The translations under genes and the position numbers were made by a program. Below are positions 34,167 to 45,571 of a stretch of 64,000 bases of DNA, piece by piece. Numbering within the stretch: the first letter of the stretch is position 1; each line of letters begins with the position of its first letter. Below the pieces are notes generated by a model. That model was not told the DNA's origin, ran no database searches, and was given only the letters and a program-made list of their open reading frames with translations. Source of the stretch: Candidatus Sumerlaeota bacterium (GTDB taxonomy: Bacteria > Sumerlaeota > Sumerlaeia > MWCT01 > JAUWMI01); the NCBI GenBank assembly GCA_030613245.1, contig JAUWMI010000021.1, positions 1-64,000 on the forward strand, given 5' to 3'.

Positions 34167-34194
34167 CGAATAACCCTCATTGGCTGGAGGCGTC

Positions 34195-37100
34195 ATGAAA
34201 AAATTAATGCATACAATACTCCCATTAATCCTATTGGTCTTTATTACCAATGCATATTCTCGCACCATCACCGTGGGACACGATGCAGGTTATGATTATC
34301 AAACTATTACGGCAGCACTGGAAGCAGCGGAGAGCGGGGATACTGTTATTGTAGAAGAGGGAACGTACTCACAGAGTAGTGGTGAGATTTTCCCGTTGGA
34401 ACTGAAATCAGGTGTTACCCTCAAACGCGCAACCACCGACACCCTACCTCTAATTCTCGGCAACAATAGCGATACGGTAATTTACTCTGAGGCAGAGGAT
34501 GCTCTGATAGAAGGATTGGCTATTGAAGAGGGTAGAGCTCCTGTGAGAATTGAAGGTCGCGATGGAGGAGGCCTTTACATAGCAAGTGGCAATCTGGAGG
34601 TAAAAGATTGCCGAATATACGGAAATCATGCATTTGGGGGCGGAGGAGGAGTGTTCTGCGCCACAGGTAGCCGAGCACGGTTTGTACGTTGTTACATTGC
34701 GAACAATGAAGGCAGTGAGCGTGGCGGAGGCATTTGCTGTAGCACTGGATCGCAAGTTGAGATTTTGAACTGCAGGATTGAGAGGAACTACGCTAGTCTC
34801 GGTGGGGGTATTTATTCCGAGAACTGCCCAACAACAGTTCGATGCTGCGCTATCGTATTCAACAGAGGAGCATCTGGGGTAGGAATTTATTGTAAAGGAG
34901 AGCCTAATGCTCAAATTCACAATTGTATAATTAGTGGCAACGTTTCCGTCAATAATACTGCAGGCGGCATCCGCACTACGCAATTCTCCTCAATTACCAA
35001 TTGTGTGATAACCGGCAATCATGAGCAGGGTATCTACTTTGACTACCCTAGTTTTTCAACACCAAATCCTCCTGTATGGAACTGTATCATCTGGAATAAT
35101 GGAAGAATGGAACTGGGAGGAATGTCGGATAACAAAGAACCTGATATAAACTATTGTTGCATAAAAGGAGGCTGGGCTGGAGGCACTGGAAACATCAGTG
35201 AAGATCCATTGTTTGAGCGGGACGGATATTGGGACGGTGATGATCCTCGCTACTCCTATTGGACAGAGGGGGATTACACCCTATTGGATGGTTCACCGTG
35301 TATTGACGCAGGCAAACCAGGTGCTTACTACTATGATGCCTGCCTCCCACCAGGCAAAGGTAGTGAGCGTAATGATATGGGGGCTTATGGTGGCCCATAT
35401 AACTGTGATGCACCCGATGTAGGCTATGATTATCAAAGCATTCAGGCGGCGATTGATGCCGCCGCTGATGGTGATGAAATCATCGTCTCTCCCGGCACGT
35501 ACTATGAAAATATCCGCTTCAATGGCAAAAACGTCATACTCCGCTCCACCGACCCGACAAGCCCAACCGTTGTCGCCAGCACTATCCTTGATGGAAATCA
35601 ATCGGGTTCAGTCATTGTCTTCTCGGGGAGTGAATTGCCGTCATGTATTATATCTGGCTTTACTATAACCAACGGCAACGGATTTAATGGTGGGGCGGTC
35701 GAAGGCAACACCACCTATGCCACCATTCAGAACAATATCATTTCAGGAAACACCAGCGCTTATACATGCGCCATTGGTGGGCTCAACGGCACCATTCAAA
35801 ACAACTTGATCATCAATAACTCCGGGCATCAGGTGATAGGTGGGTGTGATGGCACCATCCAAAACAATATAATCGCACATAACGATGCGAACGGATTTTT
35901 TGCGTGCTATAGCTTTATACTCAACAATACAATATACGGTAACTCCGGCTTTGGATTCTATAATGGCGATGGCTTTATTTGCAATTGCATCATCTGGGGA
36001 AACGGCGATGGACAGCTATATGGCTCCAGCACGCCACTTTATAGCTGTATTCAGGACTGGGCCGGCGGCGGGAATAGCAATATCTCGGCCGACCCCAGAT
36101 TCGCCGACCCTTCTAATAATGACTTCCACCTACTGCCAGACTCTCCCTGCATTAATGCGGGTTATGCATTTTATCTCGCTCAGGAGTACGCTGCTGATAT
36201 AGATGGAGAATGCCGATTAGCTGGTGGAGCCGTTGATATAGGAGCTGACGAACATAATAGCCCTCTCGACAAAGATGGAGACCTTCTATCCGATAGCGAT
36301 GAAACAGCACATGGTACCAGTATTGCGAATTTTGATACCGATGCAGATGGTTTAAGTGATGGTGCAGAGATTCTTCGCGGAACAAACCCGCTTGTTTACA
36401 ACACGCCAACTGCTATTAACATACCCGCCGACTTCCCCTCAATCCAACAAGGAATATTTCTTGCCATACCCTCCGAAGAAATTCGCGTATCAGAAGGCAG
36501 TTATAATGAAAACCTATATTTTATGGGTAAGAATTTAACCCTTACCAGTACTAATCCTTTGGATCCCAGCGTGGTCAACAATACAATTATTGATGGAGGA
36601 GGGGCGTCCCGCGTTGTCCTCTTTAAAGGCACGGAAAATGAAACCTGTGCAGTAAGAGGTCTTACTCTGCGCAATGGCCATTCATCCTGGAATGGTGGCG
36701 GAATTTATGGTCATAATACAGAGGCAATCATTGAATATAATAATATTGCGGATAACATAGCTGGCGGCATTGCCAACTGCAACGGGATTATCCAGAACAA
36801 TATAATCTCGGGCAATTCGGCTAATCGCGGAGGCGGACTTTCAAATTGCCATGGCATTATCCGAAACAACACTATATCTGGTAACCTTGGCTCAGGACTC
36901 TACAATTGCGATGGCACCATCCACAATAATATTATTTCCTACAATACGGGTGGCGGCCTAAACAGGTGCAATAGCATCATTACCAACAATACCATTTCAT
37001 TTAATTCGACTACGACGAGTGGCGGAGGGATCTACGGATGCTATTACGGTGTCATTGAGAACAACGTCATCTCTTACAACTCGGCTGATGGTTATGGAGG

Positions 37101-39132
37101 TGGAATATATGGCGCCGATTTCGAAGTAAACATCAAAGATAATCTTATCATCGGCAATTCTGCTTTGCACAACGGTGGTGGGCTAGAGTTTTGCTGGGGC
37201 ACTATCTCTAACAATGTCATTTCTCATAATTCGGCGAAGGAAAATGGCGGTGGTTTTGAGTGGTGTAACGGCACTATAGAACAAAATGTAATTTCTGGCA
37301 ACATGGCGGGCGCTAATGGAGGCGGATTATCTGAGTGCAACGGCACCATCAAGAACAATATCATATCAGCTAACTCCGCAGCTCAGTGCGGTGGTGGTAT
37401 CTACGCCTCCCATGGGGCGATAATCCAGAACAACATTTATGGTAACTCCGCTGGTTATTCCGGAGGAGGGCTATCTTGGTGCAGCGGAATATACAACTGC
37501 ATTATTACGGGAAATAGTGCAAATGATGAAGGAGGTGGGTTATATTCGCCCTATGATGTGCCAATCTATAACTGTACTATCTCCGACAACTACGCAAAAA
37601 ATGAAGGAGGCGGAATATTCTACTATCAAGTCATTCCCACACCGACTCCTCCCTGGCCATTGCCCTGGGCAGCAGATAATGAAACAGAATCTCAGAGCGA
37701 AGGATCTTATCTTGGGGAAAATAGCATTCATCTCCACGGCGAAACTTCTCAGCGAGAACCGAACATTCAGCAAAGGCTAACAATTGACAGCCTGGACATT
37801 AAAAATTCTATCATCTGGAACAATTTTAATGGTGAAATTTCCTACAATTACATAGGACCTTCTGCTCGTTATTGTTGCATAAAAGGCGGCTGGTCTCAAT
37901 GGTCTGGTAACATATCTGATGACCCGCTATTCGTTGATCCTGGTTATTGGACCGGAACCCCTGGCAGCTCTACGTGGGTCAATGGGAATTATCAACTGGC
38001 ACCTGATTCTCCGTGTATTGATGCTGGCGACCCTGATCCGCAATGGAATGATGCCTGCTTGCCGCCCGGTCAAGGCACTCAAAGAAATGATATGGGCGCT
38101 TATGGCGGCCCATATAACTGCGGCTGGGGTGAACCCACGGCACCCCCTGTATGCTTTGATTTTAACAACGGCCCGCAAGGATGGAATTTTGCCGGCAGAA
38201 TTGCCTCCTTCAATGGACCAAATAGCACATGGGACACGGGACGTCTCGGACTCTCACCTGCGGGCTCTGCAAATTGTTTCTCGTATTGGTGCAGTCCGGT
38301 GGTTTACGCCCGGCAAGATAAACCATATCGCGTACGCTGGACAGTAAGCTCCAGTGTCAGCAATGCAGACGAAGCATTGGATTTTCGGCTGCGCGCCAAT
38401 CAGCTCGGAGACTGGCGCTTCTGGACAACCAGCGTTATAAGCCTTAATGATGCCGCGCCAACTACTCAGACGAAAACCTACGACCTGATTATCCTGCCTG
38501 AAATGGAATCGCCCATCGATAGCATCTTCCTAAGCTTCGATCTGATGGGATTCGATCCCGCAAATGATTCACAATCCTGGCTCTATCTGGATGAAGTGCG
38601 TATGGATGAAGTCAGCATAACTCCTATTGTGCCGACAGTAATACTGGCGCACCATACATTCGACAATGACAGTGAGGGCTGGGAATTTCAGGGTAAGATC
38701 GCAGATTTCGATGAGCCGCTTCCTGTGGTTGAGCCCGGACAAATTGGCCTCTCACCCAACAGCTCACCGTATTGCTTCTCCTATTGGCTGAGCCCGGAAA
38801 TTGAGGTAGGAAAAGATAGAGTTTACCTGGTGAGCTGGCAGGTGAGTTCCAGTACCAGCGACCCGGATCAAGTGGTAGATTTTCGCCTCAGGTGCAACCA
38901 GACAAGCAACTTGCGCGCCTGGGATACAGGAACGCTCTTCAGCCTCGGTGCTGCGTATCCTGCCGAAGGAGAGCCGAGAACTTACGAACTGATGATCTTC
39001 CCCCAGATGTCAACCGAATCAGACACTGTACGGCTGTCTTTTGACATCGTAAGTTTTGATGGATCGAACGACCTCGATAGCTCCATCTATCTCGAAGATG
39101 TCACCGTTCAAGAGTATCTAATCCAGCCTTGA
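34195..39132 (+). CDS. Giant exported right-handed beta-helix protein with TSP3-like repeat and two C-terminal domains
   Basis: The protein is 1645 residues from the ATG at 34195, which follows CTGGAGG. It has a signal peptide (residues 1-23, ending NAYS). Three right-handed parallel beta-helix blocks each open with a DUF1565-like 'YQ(T/S)I..A...A..GD.I.V..GTY' segment and close with a 'CI(D/N)AG' segment. After block two, residues ~693-733 form thrombospondin-3-like, Asp-rich calcium repeats (DKDGDLLSDSDE, DTDADGLSDGAE). Block three has ~28-residue turns of the type N..I.GN.A...GGG...C.G.I. The last ~325 residues are two copies of a ~160-residue domain (GPQGW, CFSYW, FRLR motifs) shared with two nearby proteins. 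It is likely secreted or surface-bound, as an adhesin or polysaccharide-active protein; no catalytic residues can be assigned. Confidence 0.85.
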   Translation: MKKLMHTILPLILLVFITNAYSRTITVGHDAGYDYQTITAALEAAESGDTVIVEEGTYSQSSGEIFPLELKSGVTLKRATTDTLPLILGNNSDTVIYSEAEDALIEGLAIEEGRAPVRIEGRDGGGLYIASGNLEVKDCRIYGNHAFGGGGGVFCATGSRARFVRCYIANNEGSERGGGICCSTGSQVEILNCRIERNYASLGGGIYSENCPTTVRCCAIVFNRGASGVGIYCKGEPNAQIHNCIISGNVSVNNTAGGIRTTQFSSITNCVITGNHEQGIYFDYPSFSTPNPPVWNCIIWNNGRMELGGMSDNKEPDINYCCIKGGWAGGTGNISEDPLFERDGYWDGDDPRYSYWTEGDYTLLDGSPCIDAGKPGAYYYDACLPPGKGSERNDMGAYGGPYNCDAPDVGYDYQSIQAAIDAAADGDEIIVSPGTYYENIRFNGKNVILRSTDPTSPTVVASTILDGNQSGSVIVFSGSELPSCIISGFTITNGNGFNGGAVEGNTTYATIQNNIISGNTSAYTCAIGGLNGTIQNNLIINNSGHQVIGGCDGTIQNNIIAHNDANGFFACYSFILNNTIYGNSGFGFYNGDGFICNCIIWGNGDGQLYGSSTPLYSCIQDWAGGGNSNISADPRFADPSNNDFHLLPDSPCINAGYAFYLAQEYAADIDGECRLAGGAVDIGADEHNSPLDKDGDLLSDSDETAHGTSIANFDTDADGLSDGAEILRGTNPLVYNTPTAINIPADFPSIQQGIFLAIPSEEIRVSEGSYNENLYFMGKNLTLTSTNPLDPSVVNNTIIDGGGASRVVLFKGTENETCAVRGLTLRNGHSSWNGGGIYGHNTEAIIEYNNIADNIAGGIANCNGIIQNNIISGNSANRGGGLSNCHGIIRNNTISGNLGSGLYNCDGTIHNNIISYNTGGGLNRCNSIITNNTISFNSTTTSGGGIYGCYYGVIENNVISYNSADGYGGGIYGADFEVNIKDNLIIGNSALHNGGGLEFCWGTISNNVISHNSAKENGGGFEWCNGTIEQNVISGNMAGANGGGLSECNGTIKNNIISANSAAQCGGGIYASHGAIIQNNIYGNSAGYSGGGLSWCSGIYNCIITGNSANDEGGGLYSPYDVPIYNCTISDNYAKNEGGGIFYYQVIPTPTPPWPLPWAADNETESQSEGSYLGENSIHLHGETSQREPNIQQRLTIDSLDIKNSIIWNNFNGEISYNYIGPSARYCCIKGGWSQWSGNISDDPLFVDPGYWTGTPGSSTWVNGNYQLAPDSPCIDAGDPDPQWNDACLPPGQGTQRNDMGAYGGPYNCGWGEPTAPPVCFDFNNGPQGWNFAGRIASFNGPNSTWDTGRLGLSPAGSANCFSYWCSPVVYARQDKPYRVRWTVSSSVSNADEALDFRLRANQLGDWRFWTTSVISLNDAAPTTQTKTYDLIILPEMESPIDSIFLSFDLMGFDPANDSQSWLYLDEVRMDEVSITPIVPTVILAHHTFDNDSEGWEFQGKIADFDEPLPVVEPGQIGLSPNSSPYCFSYWLSPEIEVGKDRVYLVSWQVSSSTSDPDQVVDFRLRCNQTSNLRAWDTGTLFSLGAAYPAEGEPRTYELMIFPQMSTESDTVRLSFDIVSFDGSNDLDSSIYLEDVTVQEYLIQP
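38155..39132 (+). other. Two tandem copies of a shared C-terminal domain (beta-helix protein)
   Basis: Residues ~1321-1482 and ~1483-1645 each contain an F(D/N)-type start with GW about ten residues in, CFSYW with a following Pro, DFRLR.NQ, a (T/R)TY(D/E)L strand, LSFD....FD and a closing (L/I)YLEDV-like strand. The pattern suggests a jelly-roll-like, carbohydrate-binding-type beta sandwich. I do not recognise a named family. Two further copies are at 39490-40469 and a diverged one at 43355-43840. Confidence 0.65.
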
Positions 39133-39245
39133 GCAGCTTATTTAAGCAAATTACCAGAAGGTACTGGACCTAAAAGCTACTTGTCCCGAGCACTTATTCT
39201 TGCAATAGCGTATTGAAATAATCCCGATCAGAGAAAATAAGGCCC

Positions 39246-40469
39246 ATGAAGAAACTTCTGGCAATAATGATTATCCTTACATTAGGGATTCTTATTACGA
39301 ACGCATATTCCCGCACTATCACCGTGGGACACGGTGATGGTTACGATTATCAGACGATAACCGAGGCAGCGCGAGCAGCGCAGCCGGGTGATGTGATTCT
39401 CGTTGCTGATGGCACATATTCAGAAAGCAAGGGTGAGGTTTTCCCTATAGATATGAGTTCGAGCATTACTTTGAAGGGGTCTGCTAGCGGCTTTGATTTT
39501 AACAACGGCCCGCAAGGATGGGATTTTGCCGGAAGGATTGCCCCCCTTGATGAACCAAATGCGAAATGGGACTTGAAACGGCTCGGAATCTCGCCTGAAG
39601 GCTCAGCGAATTGTTTCTCATATTGGGGCAGCTCGGAGATTATCTTGAAGAAGGACAAAGTGTATCGCGCGAGCTGGCAGGTGAGTTCCAGCGCCAACGT
39701 GGCAGACGAGGCATTGGATTTTCGGCTGCGAGCCAATCAACTCGGAAACTGGCGCTATTGGACAACTAATGTCATCAACCTTAATGATGCCGCTCCAACT
39801 ACTCAGACGAAAACCTACGACCTGATTATCCTGCCTGAAATGGATTCAACCACTGATAGCATTGTTCTCAGCTTTGATCTCATGTCATTTGATCCCGCAA
39901 ATGATTTACAATCCTGGCTCTATATTGATCAAGTATGTCTGCATGAAGTCAGCATAACTCCTATCGTGCCTGCAGTTATTCAGGCGCACTATTCATTTGA
40001 AAATTACACTGAGGGCTGGGAATTTCAGGGGAAGATCGGATATTTCAATGAGCCGGTTCCCGTGGTTTTACCAGGACAAATTGGACTTTCACCCAATGGC
40101 TCTCCGTATTGCTTCTCCTATTGGCTTAGTCCGGAAATTGAGGTGGAGAAGGACAGAGTGTACCTGGTAAGCTGGCAGGTGAGCTCCAGTACAACCAACC
40201 CGGATCGGGTCGTGGATTTCCGCCTCAGGTGTAACCAGACCAGTAACTTGCGCGCTTGGGTTACCGGAACATACTTTAGCACGGGTGCTGCGTATCCTGC
40301 CGGTGGAGAGCCAAGAACCTATGAACTGATGGTCCTTCCCCAGATGTCAACCCAATCAGACACCATACGGCTCTCTTTTGACATTATGAGCCTCGATAGG
40401 GCGAACGAACTCAACAGCTTCATTTATCTCGAAGAGGTCACCATTCACGAGTACGTGATCCAGCCCTGA
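39246..40469 (+). CDS. Short exported paralogue: signal peptide, one beta-helix opening segment and two shared C-terminal domains
   Basis: The 407-residue protein repeats the giant gene just upstream in shortened form. Residues 1-22 are a near-identical signal peptide (ITNAYSRTITVGH). Residues 23-80 are the DUF1565-like opening (YQTITEA, GDVILVADGTY). The sequence then jumps at SITLKGSAS straight into the first shared C-terminal domain (FDFNNGPQGW) and the second. All beta-helix turns and the TSP3 part are missing. At the DNA level the C-terminal half is very similar to the end of the giant gene, so a tandem duplication with internal deletion is the simplest history. It lies 113 nt downstream on the same strand with a weak AAGG ribosome site. 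Confidence 0.82.
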   Translation: MKKLLAIMIILTLGILITNAYSRTITVGHGDGYDYQTITEAARAAQPGDVILVADGTYSESKGEVFPIDMSSSITLKGSASGFDFNNGPQGWDFAGRIAPLDEPNAKWDLKRLGISPEGSANCFSYWGSSEIILKKDKVYRASWQVSSSANVADEALDFRLRANQLGNWRYWTTNVINLNDAAPTTQTKTYDLIILPEMDSTTDSIVLSFDLMSFDPANDLQSWLYIDQVCLHEVSITPIVPAVIQAHYSFENYTEGWEFQGKIGYFNEPVPVVLPGQIGLSPNGSPYCFSYWLSPEIEVEKDRVYLVSWQVSSSTTNPDRVVDFRLRCNQTSNLRAWVTGTYFSTGAAYPAGGEPRTYELMVLPQMSTQSDTIRLSFDIMSLDRANELNSFIYLEEVTIHEYVIQP

Positions 40470-40511
40470 GCAGAGTCAAAAGATAAAACACGCTCTGCGC
40501 AATATTCATGT

Positions 40512-40736
40512 AATTCAAAGTGCCCGAAAAATTCCTGAGGGTAAGAACGCAAATATTGGGGCGAAGGCCCTTTGGAGTGCGTAAGCGTAGCGAAAGCGAA
40601 GCTTGCGCTTTTGCGCCGAAGGCGGGACGAAGCGTAGCTTCGGTGTGATTGTCGCAAGCTGCGCTTGCGACTGACAAAGCGGCAGCTCGGCTGCGCTTCG
40701 CTGCCGCACTCCAAGGCCAAAAACGGGCACTTTGAG
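40512..40736. repeat. ~225-bp nested inverted-repeat element
   Basis: The outer arms are ATTCAAAGTGCCCG (40512-40525) and CGGGCACTTTGAGT (40723-40736), 13 of 14 paired. The second arms, GGCCCTTTGGAGTGCG (40566-40581) and CGCACTCCAAGGCC (40705-40718), also pair. Inside are hairpins CGAAGC-GTA-GCTTCG, GTCGCAAGC-TGC-GCTTGCGAC (perfect 9-bp stem) and GCGGCAG...CTGCCGC. It could fold into a cruciform or a branched RNA. It resembles a repeat or small non-coding element rather than a gene. Confidence 0.7.
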
Positions 40737-40819
40737 TTATATAAGATTCTTCCTTTCCATTACCTTCTTTCACAATTAGAATGCGCGAAAATAGGTCATT
40801 CCCTCCCATAGAGATGCCC

Positions 40820-40848
40820 TTGACTTTTCCTGTCAATAAACCTATGTA
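40820..40848 (+). promoter_or_regulatory. Likely promoter of the double-GNAT gene
   Basis: TTGACT (40820-40825), 17 bp, then TATGTA (40843-40848). The ATG at 40899 is 51 nt downstream with AAAGGA before it. Confidence 0.5.
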
Positions 40849-40898
40849 CCATAACGCATAGCTAAGCGACAAGCAAGTCACGAGAAAGGATTTAACCA

Positions 40899-41843
40899 AT
40901 GGTGACGATTCGTCCGTTTGAGGGCTCCGACACGGTGAACATGATTGAGCTCTGGAATGCTGTATTACCGTTCGATGGGATCACGCTGAATATCTTCGAG
41001 CGAAAAGTCATTCTCGACGTGAATCGCGAGCGCGACAGCTTAATAGTTGCAGAGCGCAACGGCAGCCTGGTTGGCTTTATTCTGGCCCTCGTAATTCGCA
41101 AACCCATTGAAAACGTCGGCCTGCGCGAAGACAGCGGGTTTATTACTGCAATGGGCATCCATCCTGACTGCCGGCGCCAGGGTATCGGCAAGCAGCTGCT
41201 TGAGCGAGCGCTCGAGTTCTTCAAGGCGCGAAATCGCCAGTTCGTCTACATCGCTCCCTATACGCCGAACTACTTCGTTCCTGGCATTGACAAGGACAAC
41301 TACCCTGAGGGCATAGAGTTTTTTAAATCATTCGGGTTTGAGGAATATGCTACTGCGATCGCCATGGATGCGCCGATTTCGAAGTTTACGCTATCCGACG
41401 CCGTACTGGCGAAAGAGAAATCACTCGCTGCAGAAGGAATAATTATTCGCCCTTATTCGAGTGCAGACCTGGCTCCGTATCTGGAGTTCATGGATCGCAA
41501 TATGCCCGGGCCATGGCTCGAAGATACGCGGCGGAACCTGCTGGATCTCACGCGCGGCCTGTTCGATGAAGATGCGATCTTTCTAGCGTTTAAGGACTCG
41601 CGCATTATCGGCTATTGCCAGTACGAACGCGAGCACTTCGGCCCTTTTGGTGTGATTGACGAATTTCAGGGCAAGGGCATTGGCTCGGTACTGTTGGCCA
41701 GAACCCTTTACCAGATGCGACTTAAGGGATACCATTCTGCATGGGTACTCTGGACAGGCGAACAAGCGGCTGAGGGAGTTTATGGCAGGCTTGGATTTAC
41801 CATCACGCGCCGTTTCGCTATGATGAAAAAGGCGCTCGGGTAG
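40899..41843 (+). CDS. Tandem GNAT-family N-acetyltransferase
   Basis: The 314-residue protein holds two GNAT folds. The first (residues ~1-150) has the acetyl-CoA loop MGIHPDCRRQGIGKQLL. The second (~185-314) has VIDEFQGKGIGSVLLARTL. Both have intact R/Q-x-x-G-x-G/A pyrophosphate loops, so both may bind acetyl-CoA. Double-GNAT proteins include mycothiol synthase-like and amino-acid acetylating enzymes, but the substrate here cannot be named. It has its own promoter and lies between the beta-helix pair and an orphan binding lipoprotein. Confidence 0.85.
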   Translation: MVTIRPFEGSDTVNMIELWNAVLPFDGITLNIFERKVILDVNRERDSLIVAERNGSLVGFILALVIRKPIENVGLREDSGFITAMGIHPDCRRQGIGKQLLERALEFFKARNRQFVYIAPYTPNYFVPGIDKDNYPEGIEFFKSFGFEEYATAIAMDAPISKFTLSDAVLAKEKSLAAEGIIIRPYSSADLAPYLEFMDRNMPGPWLEDTRRNLLDLTRGLFDEDAIFLAFKDSRIIGYCQYEREHFGPFGVIDEFQGKGIGSVLLARTLYQMRLKGYHSAWVLWTGEQAAEGVYGRLGFTITRRFAMMKKALG

Positions 41844-41900
41844 TTGGAGTCTGTCAGTTACTAAGAGTGCCTGTCAAAATGAAGATTTTTTCTGATTCTT

Positions 41901-41919
41901 CACGGGCTGGAAGCCCGTG
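41901..41919. repeat. CACGGGCT/AGCCCGTG hairpin repeat, copy 2
   Basis: CACGGGCT and AGCCCGTG pair around GGA and are followed by CCACGTGG, itself a palindrome. It is of the same family as 7489. Confidence 0.7.
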
Positions 41920-42028
41920 CCACGTGGCTATGGCAAAAATAGCTAAGCATGGGGAACATTCATAATATCCATTTTGTTAGAGGGCTTCAGAATTTCAATA
42001 TGCATTGAGCTCATAAATAATATCGTGG

Positions 42029-42047
42029 CACGGGCATCCTGCCCGTG
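42029..42047. repeat. CACGGGC/GCCCGTG hairpin repeat, copy 3
   Basis: A 7-bp stem around ATCCT, preceded by GTGG and located 20 nt upstream of the binding-protein start codon, where it could affect translation initiation. Confidence 0.7.
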
Positions 42048-42066
42048 AAACCGGCGAGATGCTTCT

Positions 42067-43332
42067 ATGATCCTCCAGAATTTTCGCACACACTTAATGC
42101 ACATTGCATGTCTCTGCGTACTCGCTCTATGTGTGAGTTCCTGCCACCAGAGTAAGAACGAGACCCGCATTAGGCTTCTGTGGTTCGGAAGCCCTACAGA
42201 GACCAATGCGCTACGTGAGATCATCAATGCCTACGAAAAGGAGCATGCGCCGAATAGCGTAGAGCTCCAGAGTGTTGAGTGGGGGCGTTACGACGAGAAG
42301 CTGATGACCATGATGGTTGGACGCCGGAGCCCGGACATCGCTCGCATGTCGGCTCAGTGGTGTCCTCGCTATGCTGGCCATCAGGTCTTCGCCAATATCA
42401 AGCCCCACTTTTCGCAGGAAGAGCTCGCCGACTTCGATCCCTCGCGCATGACCTCATGCCAGACAGACACGATGCTCTTCGGCCTTCCGCACACTTCCAT
42501 AGGTCTCATGCTGTTTTACAATAAGGATATCGCGGCAAAAGCGGGAGTCAATATTCCTGAAACGCTTGAGCAGGCCTGGACATGGGACGAGCTCGAAAGC
42601 GTATCTATCCAAATGATGGAACGCGGCGGCGCTAGGTATGGCTGGACGACCTACAAAGGCTGGTTCCCATTTCTGATCTTTGTCTATCAGAATAGTGGGC
42701 ACATTTTAAAAAATAATCTCACAGAACCTAACTTTTCCTCGCCTGCTTGCGTGGAAGCCCTCCGCTGGTTTGTCAGCCAGCATAAACGCGAGATTGCACC
42801 GAGCTCGGCATGGGTGAGCCGTGGCGGCGGCGAAGAGCTCTTTATGCGCAGCCTTGCTGCCATGGTGATCACTGGCAACTGGCGTCTGACCACCTTTGCC
42901 AATCGCATTAAAACCTTCGAGTGGGACGTAACGTACCTGCCGCGCCAGAAGCGAGCAGCAACGAATATCGGCGGGGAAAATCTCGTGGTGTTCAATACCC
43001 CTAGAACCAAGATGGCGGTAGATTTTCTGCGCTACGTCTGCACTCCAGACAACATGCGCAAGTTCTGCAGTGAAACGCTCTTTATTCCCACCCGGCGTTC
43101 GCTGCTGGATGCCGAGTTTGAGTACAGCCAGCAAACCGCGCGGATGCAGAAATTCATCCTCCAGTCGCGCGCTTTCGATCCCGAATGGGCACGCGAACAG
43201 AGCACCGTCAAGTTCTCCGGCATCGAAATTGATCTGCTGAAGAATATCGAATTGGTGATTCTAGGCGAAAAGAGTCCAGAAGATGCGTTTGCCGAGGTGG
43301 ATGAGAAATACCGTGCTTACGAAGTCTGGTAG
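42067..43332 (+). CDS. Extracellular solute-binding lipoprotein (sugar ABC importer type)
   Basis: The signal peptide ends in the lipobox LCVSSC with the lipidated Cys at about residue 26. The mature protein is a cluster-B type solute-binding protein (UgpB/MalE-like): IRLLWFGSPTETNALREII at the start, YNKDIAAKAG and the long TWDELESVSIQM segment. At 421 residues it is normal for sugar binders. There are no permeases or ATPase beside it, and the complete sugar system at 56-59 kb has its own binding protein, so this one is an orphan or a second specificity for shared permeases. Confidence 0.88.
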   Translation: MILQNFRTHLMHIACLCVLALCVSSCHQSKNETRIRLLWFGSPTETNALREIINAYEKEHAPNSVELQSVEWGRYDEKLMTMMVGRRSPDIARMSAQWCPRYAGHQVFANIKPHFSQEELADFDPSRMTSCQTDTMLFGLPHTSIGLMLFYNKDIAAKAGVNIPETLEQAWTWDELESVSIQMMERGGARYGWTTYKGWFPFLIFVYQNSGHILKNNLTEPNFSSPACVEALRWFVSQHKREIAPSSAWVSRGGGEELFMRSLAAMVITGNWRLTTFANRIKTFEWDVTYLPRQKRAATNIGGENLVVFNTPRTKMAVDFLRYVCTPDNMRKFCSETLFIPTRRSLLDAEFEYSQQTARMQKFILQSRAFDPEWAREQSTVKFSGIEIDLLKNIELVILGEKSPEDAFAEVDEKYRAYEVW

Positions 43333-43354
43333 GCAGGCTGCGCTTCGCTAATAC

Positions 43355-43840
43355 CTACGGCAATGGGCGTGCTCGAATCGTGACGTCATCAATGAAGAGG
43401 TTCCTACCAACCGGGTTGCCCGGATCGAAACCGAATAAGTCCACCACTGGTCGAAAGCCCTCACCCACCACGGTCGGAGGCGGCACGTAATATAGCGTAT
43501 AGGACTTCGAGGCGCCGCTGGACGGCGAATCGTCACCCGGCGCGATGCTACTTATACCAAACACCGCAAACCCCTGCGTATTATTCGTATTCAACCGGCA
43601 GCGCAGTCCTGGAGCATCTCCCGGGCTTGCATCCGAACCAATCGTAAACGTTGCCTCGTACAATTTGCCCGCTTCAACAGGGATTCCCGGGCCAAGCCAG
43701 TATCCGAAACACGACGCCGGAGTCGTCTTTGTCAAATAGAGCGCCCCATTCATCACTCCACTTGTAGGCGCATCAAACACTCCCGGAACACTGCCGTATG
43801 TCCATCCCTGCGGATCGTCGCCGTCAAAGGAATAGTGAAA
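43355..43840 (-). other. Diverged copy of the shared C-terminal domain (subtilase)
   Basis: It keeps the landmarks of the other copies: FDGDDPQGW, CFGYWLGP, RCRLNTNN, SKSYTLYYVP, VVDLFGFDPGNP and LFIDDVTI, in the same order and spacing. It has no other recognised domain relation. Confidence 0.6.
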
Positions 43841-45571
43841 ATAGCCCTGGGTAAGATTCTGCCCCGCGGCAAGCGCATCTGCTCGGCCATATCCAAAAGT
43901 ATTGTTCGGCACAGGTAAACCAAGAGCGACAGCGTGTGTCTCAAGAACCGTCCCCAATTCCTGCGGCGTAAGCCCAGCATTCCAGCTCAAAAGCAGGGCT
44001 GCAACTCCGGCAATGTGTGCCACCGAAGCCGAGCTGCCACTAAAGGTCAGATACTGTGGAACGCTGGTCGAGACCCCGTCGGGACCTACCAGCTCCGGCT
44101 TGATGCGCCCGTCGTTAGTTGGCCCTCGGCTGCTATACGATCTTATGCTGAACGGCGTGCTCCACTGCACGGCGCCAACGCTGATCACCCCACCACCCGC
44201 ATCGTTGTTGTTGACCACGCTGCTCTCTTCGGTAATGTACTCCTGCCAGCTTGTGCCGTAAATAAACATGTCGAGCTCACGGATTGCGGTATTAAAGCCC
44301 ACAATGACAATGTATGCCGAGATTGTACTCGACGATTGATTCCAATAATTGATTCGCTCGATCGGATCCCCCAGACCTCCCTGAATGTCTTCAGATGAAG
44401 CAAAGCGATTGCCCTCACTGAAATCCAGCGTCGGACTTTTCAGCAAGAACAGGTCATAGTCATTGGCCGACAATCCAAATCGGTCACTCCACTGCAGGAA
44501 GATCGCCACTTCATCATCCGGGGCAATGGAAATCCGAAACATTTCATCATTGCTGCCGGTATGAAAAACGTGCGTTCGGATGTTATCCTGCGGGACAACC
44601 CCCACGTTCGTTCCCCGCACGTAGAATGCCTGATAGTGCGACTGGGCAAGATTGCCCACCGCGGTAAAATAGGCAATGCCCTGATCCACAAGCGCTTTTG
44701 AGCTCAAAGAAACCGGGCTGGTCCCATCATACGGGCCGTTATTGAAGACGCCGATGTCATCCACCACCACGTGACATCCCATAGCAGCCATCCACTGTTT
44801 TGCGCAGATAAACTCCTGCGTTGTCTCAAAATTTGCAAAGTAAAGCGCGGCCCCAGGCGCAATATCGTGAATAATCTCCAGCATGGCCGTGCCTTCATAA
44901 CCCCCTGCACCGTCAAACCCGAGATCACTGCGGCCATCTGCGCGGAACGAGTTGTATGTTACGGTAGGAAGATCACCCGTGGCCTGGCTCTCTGCATAGT
45001 GCGCTATTCCATCTGCCAGCACACCAACTTTGACTCCACTCCCATTCACTCCCAGGGCTGCTCGCAACTGGTCGGCCTGCACTGTTGCGTCGCCCTGCGT
45101 GGTAACGGATCCTGTGAACCCAATCAGCATGTCAGGGAGTGCAATCCGCACAACGTACGGCAACGCTGCTATGGTCTCTATAGCATTGAGCGGCATCCGC
45201 ACCTGAAGCAAGCCCTGCGCGTCGTCTCGCAGCTGCACCTGAACGCCGTAGCTCTTCAATTCCTCCAGGAAGTCGTTGCGGCACGCCTGAAGGCGGAGGC
45301 AAACGCAGATCGTTTCGTTCTTATCAATCTTGGCCAGCCTCGTGGTCGGCACCAGCGCGTTTTTCGCCCACAGCGCTCGCTGGGCAGGATCTTTCTGCGC
45401 CTGGACGAACGCCAATATGCTCTCGAGCGAGGAAGAAATCTTTTGCCTGGACGGTGATGATGATTGCTCCTGCCACTTGTTTGCCAGGCCTTCGCTGTAA
45501 CCCACAGAGCCGACACCAAAGATGACTAAAAACAGAACAGTCATCATGCTATACGGATTCTGAATGCGCAT
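43355..45571 (-). CDS. Exported subtilase-fold protease (S8-like) with Glu at the catalytic His position
   Basis: The 738-residue protein has a signal peptide (residues 1-26), a pro-region and a subtilisin fold from ~175 to 570. Asp187 sits in VGVLADG, Asn307 of the oxyanion site in FTAVGN, and Ser514 in GSSASVAHIAGVAALL. At the normal HGT site the sequence is Y-E-G-T (Glu226), so the classic His is absent; VVVDDIG (Asp271, Asp272) follows. This is reminiscent of sedolisin-type Ser/Glu/Asp chemistry, but the fold motifs are S8. Similar 'EG-ML-IIHDIAPGA' forms occur among bacterial S8 proteins. Residues ~578-738 are a diverged copy of the C-terminal domain found in the beta-helix proteins. It may be an active exported protease or a binding protein. 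Confidence 0.82.
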   Translation of the reverse strand: MRIQNPYSMMTVLFLVIFGVGSVGYSEGLANKWQEQSSSPSRQKISSSLESILAFVQAQKDPAQRALWAKNALVPTTRLAKIDKNETICVCLRLQACRNDFLEELKSYGVQVQLRDDAQGLLQVRMPLNAIETIAALPYVVRIALPDMLIGFTGSVTTQGDATVQADQLRAALGVNGSGVKVGVLADGIAHYAESQATGDLPTVTYNSFRADGRSDLGFDGAGGYEGTAMLEIIHDIAPGAALYFANFETTQEFICAKQWMAAMGCHVVVDDIGVFNNGPYDGTSPVSLSSKALVDQGIAYFTAVGNLAQSHYQAFYVRGTNVGVVPQDNIRTHVFHTGSNDEMFRISIAPDDEVAIFLQWSDRFGLSANDYDLFLLKSPTLDFSEGNRFASSEDIQGGLGDPIERINYWNQSSSTISAYIVIVGFNTAIRELDMFIYGTSWQEYITEESSVVNNNDAGGGVISVGAVQWSTPFSIRSYSSRGPTNDGRIKPELVGPDGVSTSVPQYLTFSGSSASVAHIAGVAALLLSWNAGLTPQELGTVLETHAVALGLPVPNNTFGYGRADALAAGQNLTQGYFHYSFDGDDPQGWTYGSVPGVFDAPTSGVMNGALYLTKTTPASCFGYWLGPGIPVEAGKLYEATFTIGSDASPGDAPGLRCRLNTNNTQGFAVFGISSIAPGDDSPSSGASKSYTLYYVPPPTVVGEGFRPVVDLFGFDPGNPVGRNLFIDDVTIRARPLP

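Follow-up and report, generated by a model that had tools for sequence, protein, structure and literature searches.

A C-terminal tandem jelly-roll module on exported proteins of Candidatus Sumerlaeota, with a putative role in surface retention

The window analyzed here, a stretch of 64,000 nucleotides, lies in contig C40 of a Candidatus Sumerlaeota genome of 4.29 Mb (~4.3 Mb) in 97 contigs. Three neighboring genes in it encode exported proteins that share a domain of about 160 residues, present in five copies. The first encodes a 1650-aa beta-helix protein (34180..39132, + strand) with PF13229, NosD, choice-of-anchor Q, and TSP3 matches; TTG 34180 is listed as its start, and an in-frame ATG five codons downstream is more likely. 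It carries two copies in tandem, A1 (38143..38634, +) and A2 (38635..39129, +), the latter C-terminal, with 5 residues after the profile match. Downstream lies a 407-aa short paralogue (39246..40469, +), made of a signal peptide, ~55 residues of beta-helix N-terminus, and a second pair, B1 (39480..39971, +) and the C-terminal B2 (39972..40466, +). The third gene, on the opposite strand (43355..45571, −), encodes a 738-aa subtilase-family protein, matched by the C-terminal half of the PF00082 profile and ending in a single, diverged copy, S (43358..43849, −).

An earlier note on this DNA had taken the five segments to be homologous, and BLASTP, a leave-one-out profile, and shuffled controls all bore this out. 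Identity is 74% for A1/B1, 79% for A2/B2, and 44 to 46% between copy 1 and copy 2. Copy S shares 27 to 31% identity with the other four (BLASTP E 3e-16 to 3e-21), and a profile built with S left out recovered it at E 1.6e-19 (67 bits), the highest score among 2000 shuffles of S being 6 bits. Twenty-two columns are invariant across all five copies, including GW, CF.YW, RL, Y.L, and the terminal V. Three of the landmarks listed in the earlier note are looser in S: RLR-N becomes RLNTN, TY-L becomes SYTL, and FD-FD becomes VDLFGFD.

The 407-aa paralogue is 76% identical in amino acids to A1+A2 and 60% identical to the long protein over the first 77 residues; the corresponding DNA identity between the short and long genes is 81% over the module and 73% at the start. 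Since its signal peptide and beta-helix stretch correspond to the beginning of the long gene and run directly into the pair, it looks like a copy of the long protein that has lost its passenger. As it stands, the gene at 39246-40469 is a natural minimal cargo, a signal peptide and module with almost no passenger between them.

Searching the home genome with a profile of the five copies gave ~122 confident matches, spread over 68 frames. A second round on the extracted ORFs raised the count to 132 domain matches, distributed over 71 ORFs; a few of these ORFs are contig-end fragments, and one protein is interrupted by an in-frame TAG. The genome thus holds ~130 copies in ~70 ORFs. The TAG falls inside the second domain of a module carrier (L072:4040-8380, −) and marks either a pseudogene or an assembly error. 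Placement is nearly uniform: of the 69 ORFs that include their 3' end, 67 have a last copy ending 4 to 10 residues before the stop, and in the other two the distance is 0 and 1 residues. The C-termini stop directly after the last strand, for example at SPPALP or DYLAIP. Most carriers have a tandem pair of ~330 residues and some have one copy; the linker within the pair is 12, 14, 15, or 16 residues long in 60 of 60 pairs. Separating positions 1 and 2 in a tree of 126 copies takes 10 label changes, whereas each of 200 shuffles required at least 35. This shows that copies 1 and 2 are largely separate lineages and that most copies are inherited as a ~330-residue unit. Several module subfamilies coexist, such as those ending in ETLSPPALP or VAIDYLAIP.

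The use of the domain on exported proteins, proposed from the window, extends across the home genome, where it forms the C-terminus of many signal-peptide-bearing carriers; a hydropathy heuristic found a signal-peptide-like segment in 61 of the 64 ORFs with an N-terminus. The passengers fall into 29 clusters and include peptidases (subtilases, C25, M28), glycan enzymes (GH18, polysaccharide deacetylase), right-handed beta-helices, FG-GAP, kelch, LVIVD, and other propellers, and fn3 and TSP3 repeats. NCBIfam labels among 61 passengers include choice-of-anchor Q (14/61), choice-of-anchor B (2), and choice-of-anchor E (1), names given to proteins whose C-terminal anchor varies by lineage; the module attached to them has no NCBIfam model. 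Further passengers are related, again by NCBIfam, to proteins dependent on MYXO-CTERM/myxosortase, rhombosortase, or PEP-CTERM. Thus, as in the known classes of C-terminal sorting and anchoring signals, many unrelated signal-peptide proteins have only their C-terminus in common.

The pair also moves between passengers. Comparison of the 57 complete pairs gave 37 matches with ≥80% identity over the full length, 32 of which link passengers unrelated by BLAST; modules 80 to 88% identical are found on unrelated proteins. DNA similarity begins at the joint between passenger and module, often inside a Thr-Pro (TPTP) linker. At the level of sequence comparison, these patterns show a module pair that has been recombined onto many passengers.

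Scans of Pfam, NCBIfam, and PHROGs and a PDB sequence search returned weak CBM_4_9 matches and no named family. PF02018 (CBM_4_9) matched 5 of 94 copies at E≤0.1, the best at 0.0074, all below Pfam cut-offs. A clear hit to a named family, which the earlier note had said would overturn its view of the domain, did not turn up in Pfam or NCBIfam, nor did unlike folds among the five segments come to light. The jelly-roll-like fold that it had suggested is supported by an AlphaFold2 model of a single domain (B2, from a seven-sequence alignment), which is essentially all beta with pLDDT 85.6 and pTM 0.83. The best PDB matches by Foldseek were Eph ligand-binding domains, CBM4-2, CBM22, CelK CBM4, astacin-MAM, HpiC1 cyclases, and the gingipain K1 cleaved adhesin, at 8 to 18% identity, with prob 1.00 to 1k42, 4xuo, and 3p6b and TM 0.62 to CBM4-2 (1k42). 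The predicted fold is thus a CBM4/CBM22-like jelly roll. With the Lys-gingipain cleaved adhesin (K1), MAM, and Eph ligand-binding domains it has the jelly roll in common at 8 to 16% identity, but not the architecture. A model of the tandem pair, at pLDDT 67.5, is too weak to describe how the two domains pack.

Across 179 copies, W10, W45, R78, R80, and D131 (A1 profile numbering) are conserved at 97 to 99%, alike in both positions of the pair, and Y58, Y111, P75, and P103 are also near-invariant. R78 and R80 occupy alternating positions on a single predicted strand, which should place their side chains on one face of it. These residues could form a binding site, as discussed below; the conserved Arg-x-Arg and Asp could instead make a structural salt bridge.

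The module was found within Sumerlaeota only, in keeping with the earlier suggestion of a lineage-wide domain. At E≤1e-5, 28 of 40 Sumerlaeota genomes match, some of them with low counts of weak, internal matches, as against 0 of 346 genomes outside the phylum, for which up to 9 candidates per genome were scored. The home order and families f9 and f14 have many copies, and f5 has few; most other Sumerlaeota families have zero or one weak, mostly internal match, and the weak internal matches in f4, f6, f11, and f12 were not counted as the module. A GTDB contig search with two narrow patterns returned one locus, in a Candidatus Sumerlaeota MAG, where the same arrangement ends an 857-aa beta-helix protein. 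Relatives were not found in the viral contigs searched, and the Sumerlaeota literature searched did not mention such a module. Among 40 sampled ORFs from the f9 and f14 relatives, the module lies ≤15 residues from the C-terminus in 34 and further from it in 6. Three of these 6, all from one relative, G010 (L221, L225, L230), have ~265 residues after the pair; by eye, this extra domain resembles the formylglycine-generating-enzyme type (SGSFLMG...).

Such a distribution invites comparison with known C-terminal signals, and the first question is whether the pair is a true sorting signal in the manner of the T9SS CTD, a folded domain by which an outer-membrane translocon or sortase would recognize the passenger for export, perhaps then cutting off the tag or exchanging it. 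We regard this as the less likely account, though still a substantial possibility. Like the module, the T9SS CTD (Por_Secre_tail, Bacteroidota) is a beta-sandwich that forms the C-terminus of dozens of otherwise unrelated exported proteins, C25 peptidases and adhesins among them, and the cargo here is as diverse as in T9SS or PEP-CTERM, with C25 and M28 peptidases included. The near-absolute terminal placement in the home genome is stricter than expected of an ordinary binding domain, and a sorting signal fits it better. Unlike the T9SS CTD, which is one domain of 40 to 100 residues, the module consists of two ~155-residue jelly rolls and is sometimes internal in relatives; its ~330 aa far exceed the 40 to 82 aa reported for P. 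intermedia CTDs (PMC11969387). Identity with the T9SS CTD was rejected: the window proteins matched none of the T9SS CTD models of Pfam and NCBIfam at E≤5, the 94 copies had no such match in Pfam, and SprA (PF14349) was found in 0 of 40 Sumerlaeota genomes, whereas 15 of 59 genomes from other phyla were positive when searched alongside them. T9SS itself is, for practical purposes, excluded. A PorV search matched 0 of 40 Sumerlaeota genomes, but none of the control genomes either.

Long PorU-like C25 peptidases, which could process such a tag, occur in 38 of 40 Sumerlaeota genomes despite the absence of SprA, but they are equally common where the module is lacking; being near-universal, they do not track it, and C25 was rejected as its partner. 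Examples lie at L210:1258-6684 (−) (G000:C32) and L211:1744-6366 (+) (G000:C37), and in G000, G007, and G010 a TPR gene comes after one of the C25 types. Secretins matching the GspD model are present in all 40 genomes and are hence uninformative about the module. An exosortase/PEP-CTERM system was rejected as well, PF09721 having no match at E≤1 in the home genome while the controls were positive. PEP-CTERM/exosortase, MYXO-CTERM/myxosortase, and GlyGly-CTERM/rhombosortase resemble the module in their lineage-patchy C-terminal homology on unrelated signal-peptide proteins, with related choice-of-anchor passengers (PMC1569441, PMC11980579, PMC3237569). They differ in form, the module being a large folded pair whose C-termini lack the PEP-CTERM-type short motif, transmembrane helix, and basic tail.

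The choice-of-anchor Q proteins offer a view of what can stand in the module's place. By coordinate comparison, 15 of 17 in the home genome carry the jelly-roll module. Among 51 complete tails from Sumerlaeota relatives, mostly in genomes without the module, W-x-x-[YF] endings number 20, dockerin-like helices 4, and the module 3, the remaining 24 ending otherwise. This variety supports the view that C-termini can be exchanged and that the module is one of the options. Choice-of-anchor Q proteins without it often end 10 to 16 residues past the anchor-Q domain in W-x-x-[YF](E/R)-COOH, as in DDWQMY, NDWQLF, TEWELY, and RGWVIYE (L205, G000:C80; L206, G000:C15; L082:1-1143, +; L150-L163; L183-L189; L198; L207; L208). 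Aromatic tails in the home genome include VPDWEYY, QRWLFYY, and NEQWTLYY. The W-x-x-[YF] tail, for which no NCBIfam model was found, is possibly a second, ultra-short C-terminal tag. Four choice-of-anchor Q proteins of G002 (L190, L191, L193, L197) end in the dockerin-like DDNxDxIIDVADIVHILKK. A bolder proposal, which we think unlikely, is that Sumerlaeota sort and attach proteins at the outer membrane by a system of their own, independent of T9SS: the tandem jelly-roll domain would send ~70 proteins to the surface, and sister lineages without it would use other exchangeable tags, including the W-x-x-[YF] tail, with the universal PorU-like C25 peptidases perhaps serving them.

The explanation we favor, holding it with about as much doubt as belief, is that the domain is a Sumerlaeota-specific C-terminal anchoring, or surface-retention, module that works by binding a putative ligand, probably a glycan. 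The passenger would be exported by Sec and would then cross the outer membrane by another route, GspD-type secretins being present. The near-invariant Trp, Arg-x-Arg, and Asp residues would let the folded pair bind a lineage-specific ligand, most likely a glycan, displayed on the cell or embedded in the extracellular matrix, so that passengers such as enzymes, beta-helix adhesins, and propellers would stay with the cell. Having two similar domains in a row may add avidity, which is a guess because the tandem model has low confidence. The near-universal fusion of one pair to the C-termini of unrelated exported proteins suggests that it does one job for all its passengers. The six ORFs of relatives in which the module is not terminal are easier to reconcile with a binding module than with a terminal signal that is cleaved, and they argue against an obligately cleaved one. 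The fold, the conservation of polar and aromatic residues, and the internal copies are all accounted for if the module retains proteins by binding a ligand.

Binding could also serve nutrition. The module might be an ordinary, lineage-expanded carbohydrate-binding module that aims enzymes and adhesins at external food polysaccharides, a reading we find rather improbable. It resembles CBM4/CBM22 (PF02018 CBM_4_9) in fold, length, and weak profile similarity, and GH18 and polysaccharide deacetylase passengers act on glycans; yet its matches stay below the Pfam cut-offs, and most passengers are not glycan enzymes but beta-helices, propellers, FG-GAP proteins, and subtilases. CBMs usually vary in position and number, whereas the module is a C-terminal tandem on mostly non-enzymatic passengers, with position, copy number, and linker nearly fixed, and the 407-aa protein is barely more than a signal peptide and a pair. 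Very improbable is a structural dimerization or assembly domain that joins exported proteins into a fibre or sheath through domain-domain contacts: two similar copies per protein on many carriers would permit a self-assembling layer, and three A5-alignment passengers and one A6 passenger weakly match the Kustd1514 S-layer model, but some carriers have a single copy and a conserved interface is not in evidence.

Surface retention by the module, if correct, bears on an uncultured phylum whose surface proteome now has one sequence handle, a domain unnamed in every library searched that marks ~70 proteins in one genome. With copy numbers ranging from ~130 to none, its patchy presence across the phylum lends itself to phylogenetic profiling, which could reveal partner machinery, if any, as it did for PEP-CTERM and EpsH (PMC1569441).
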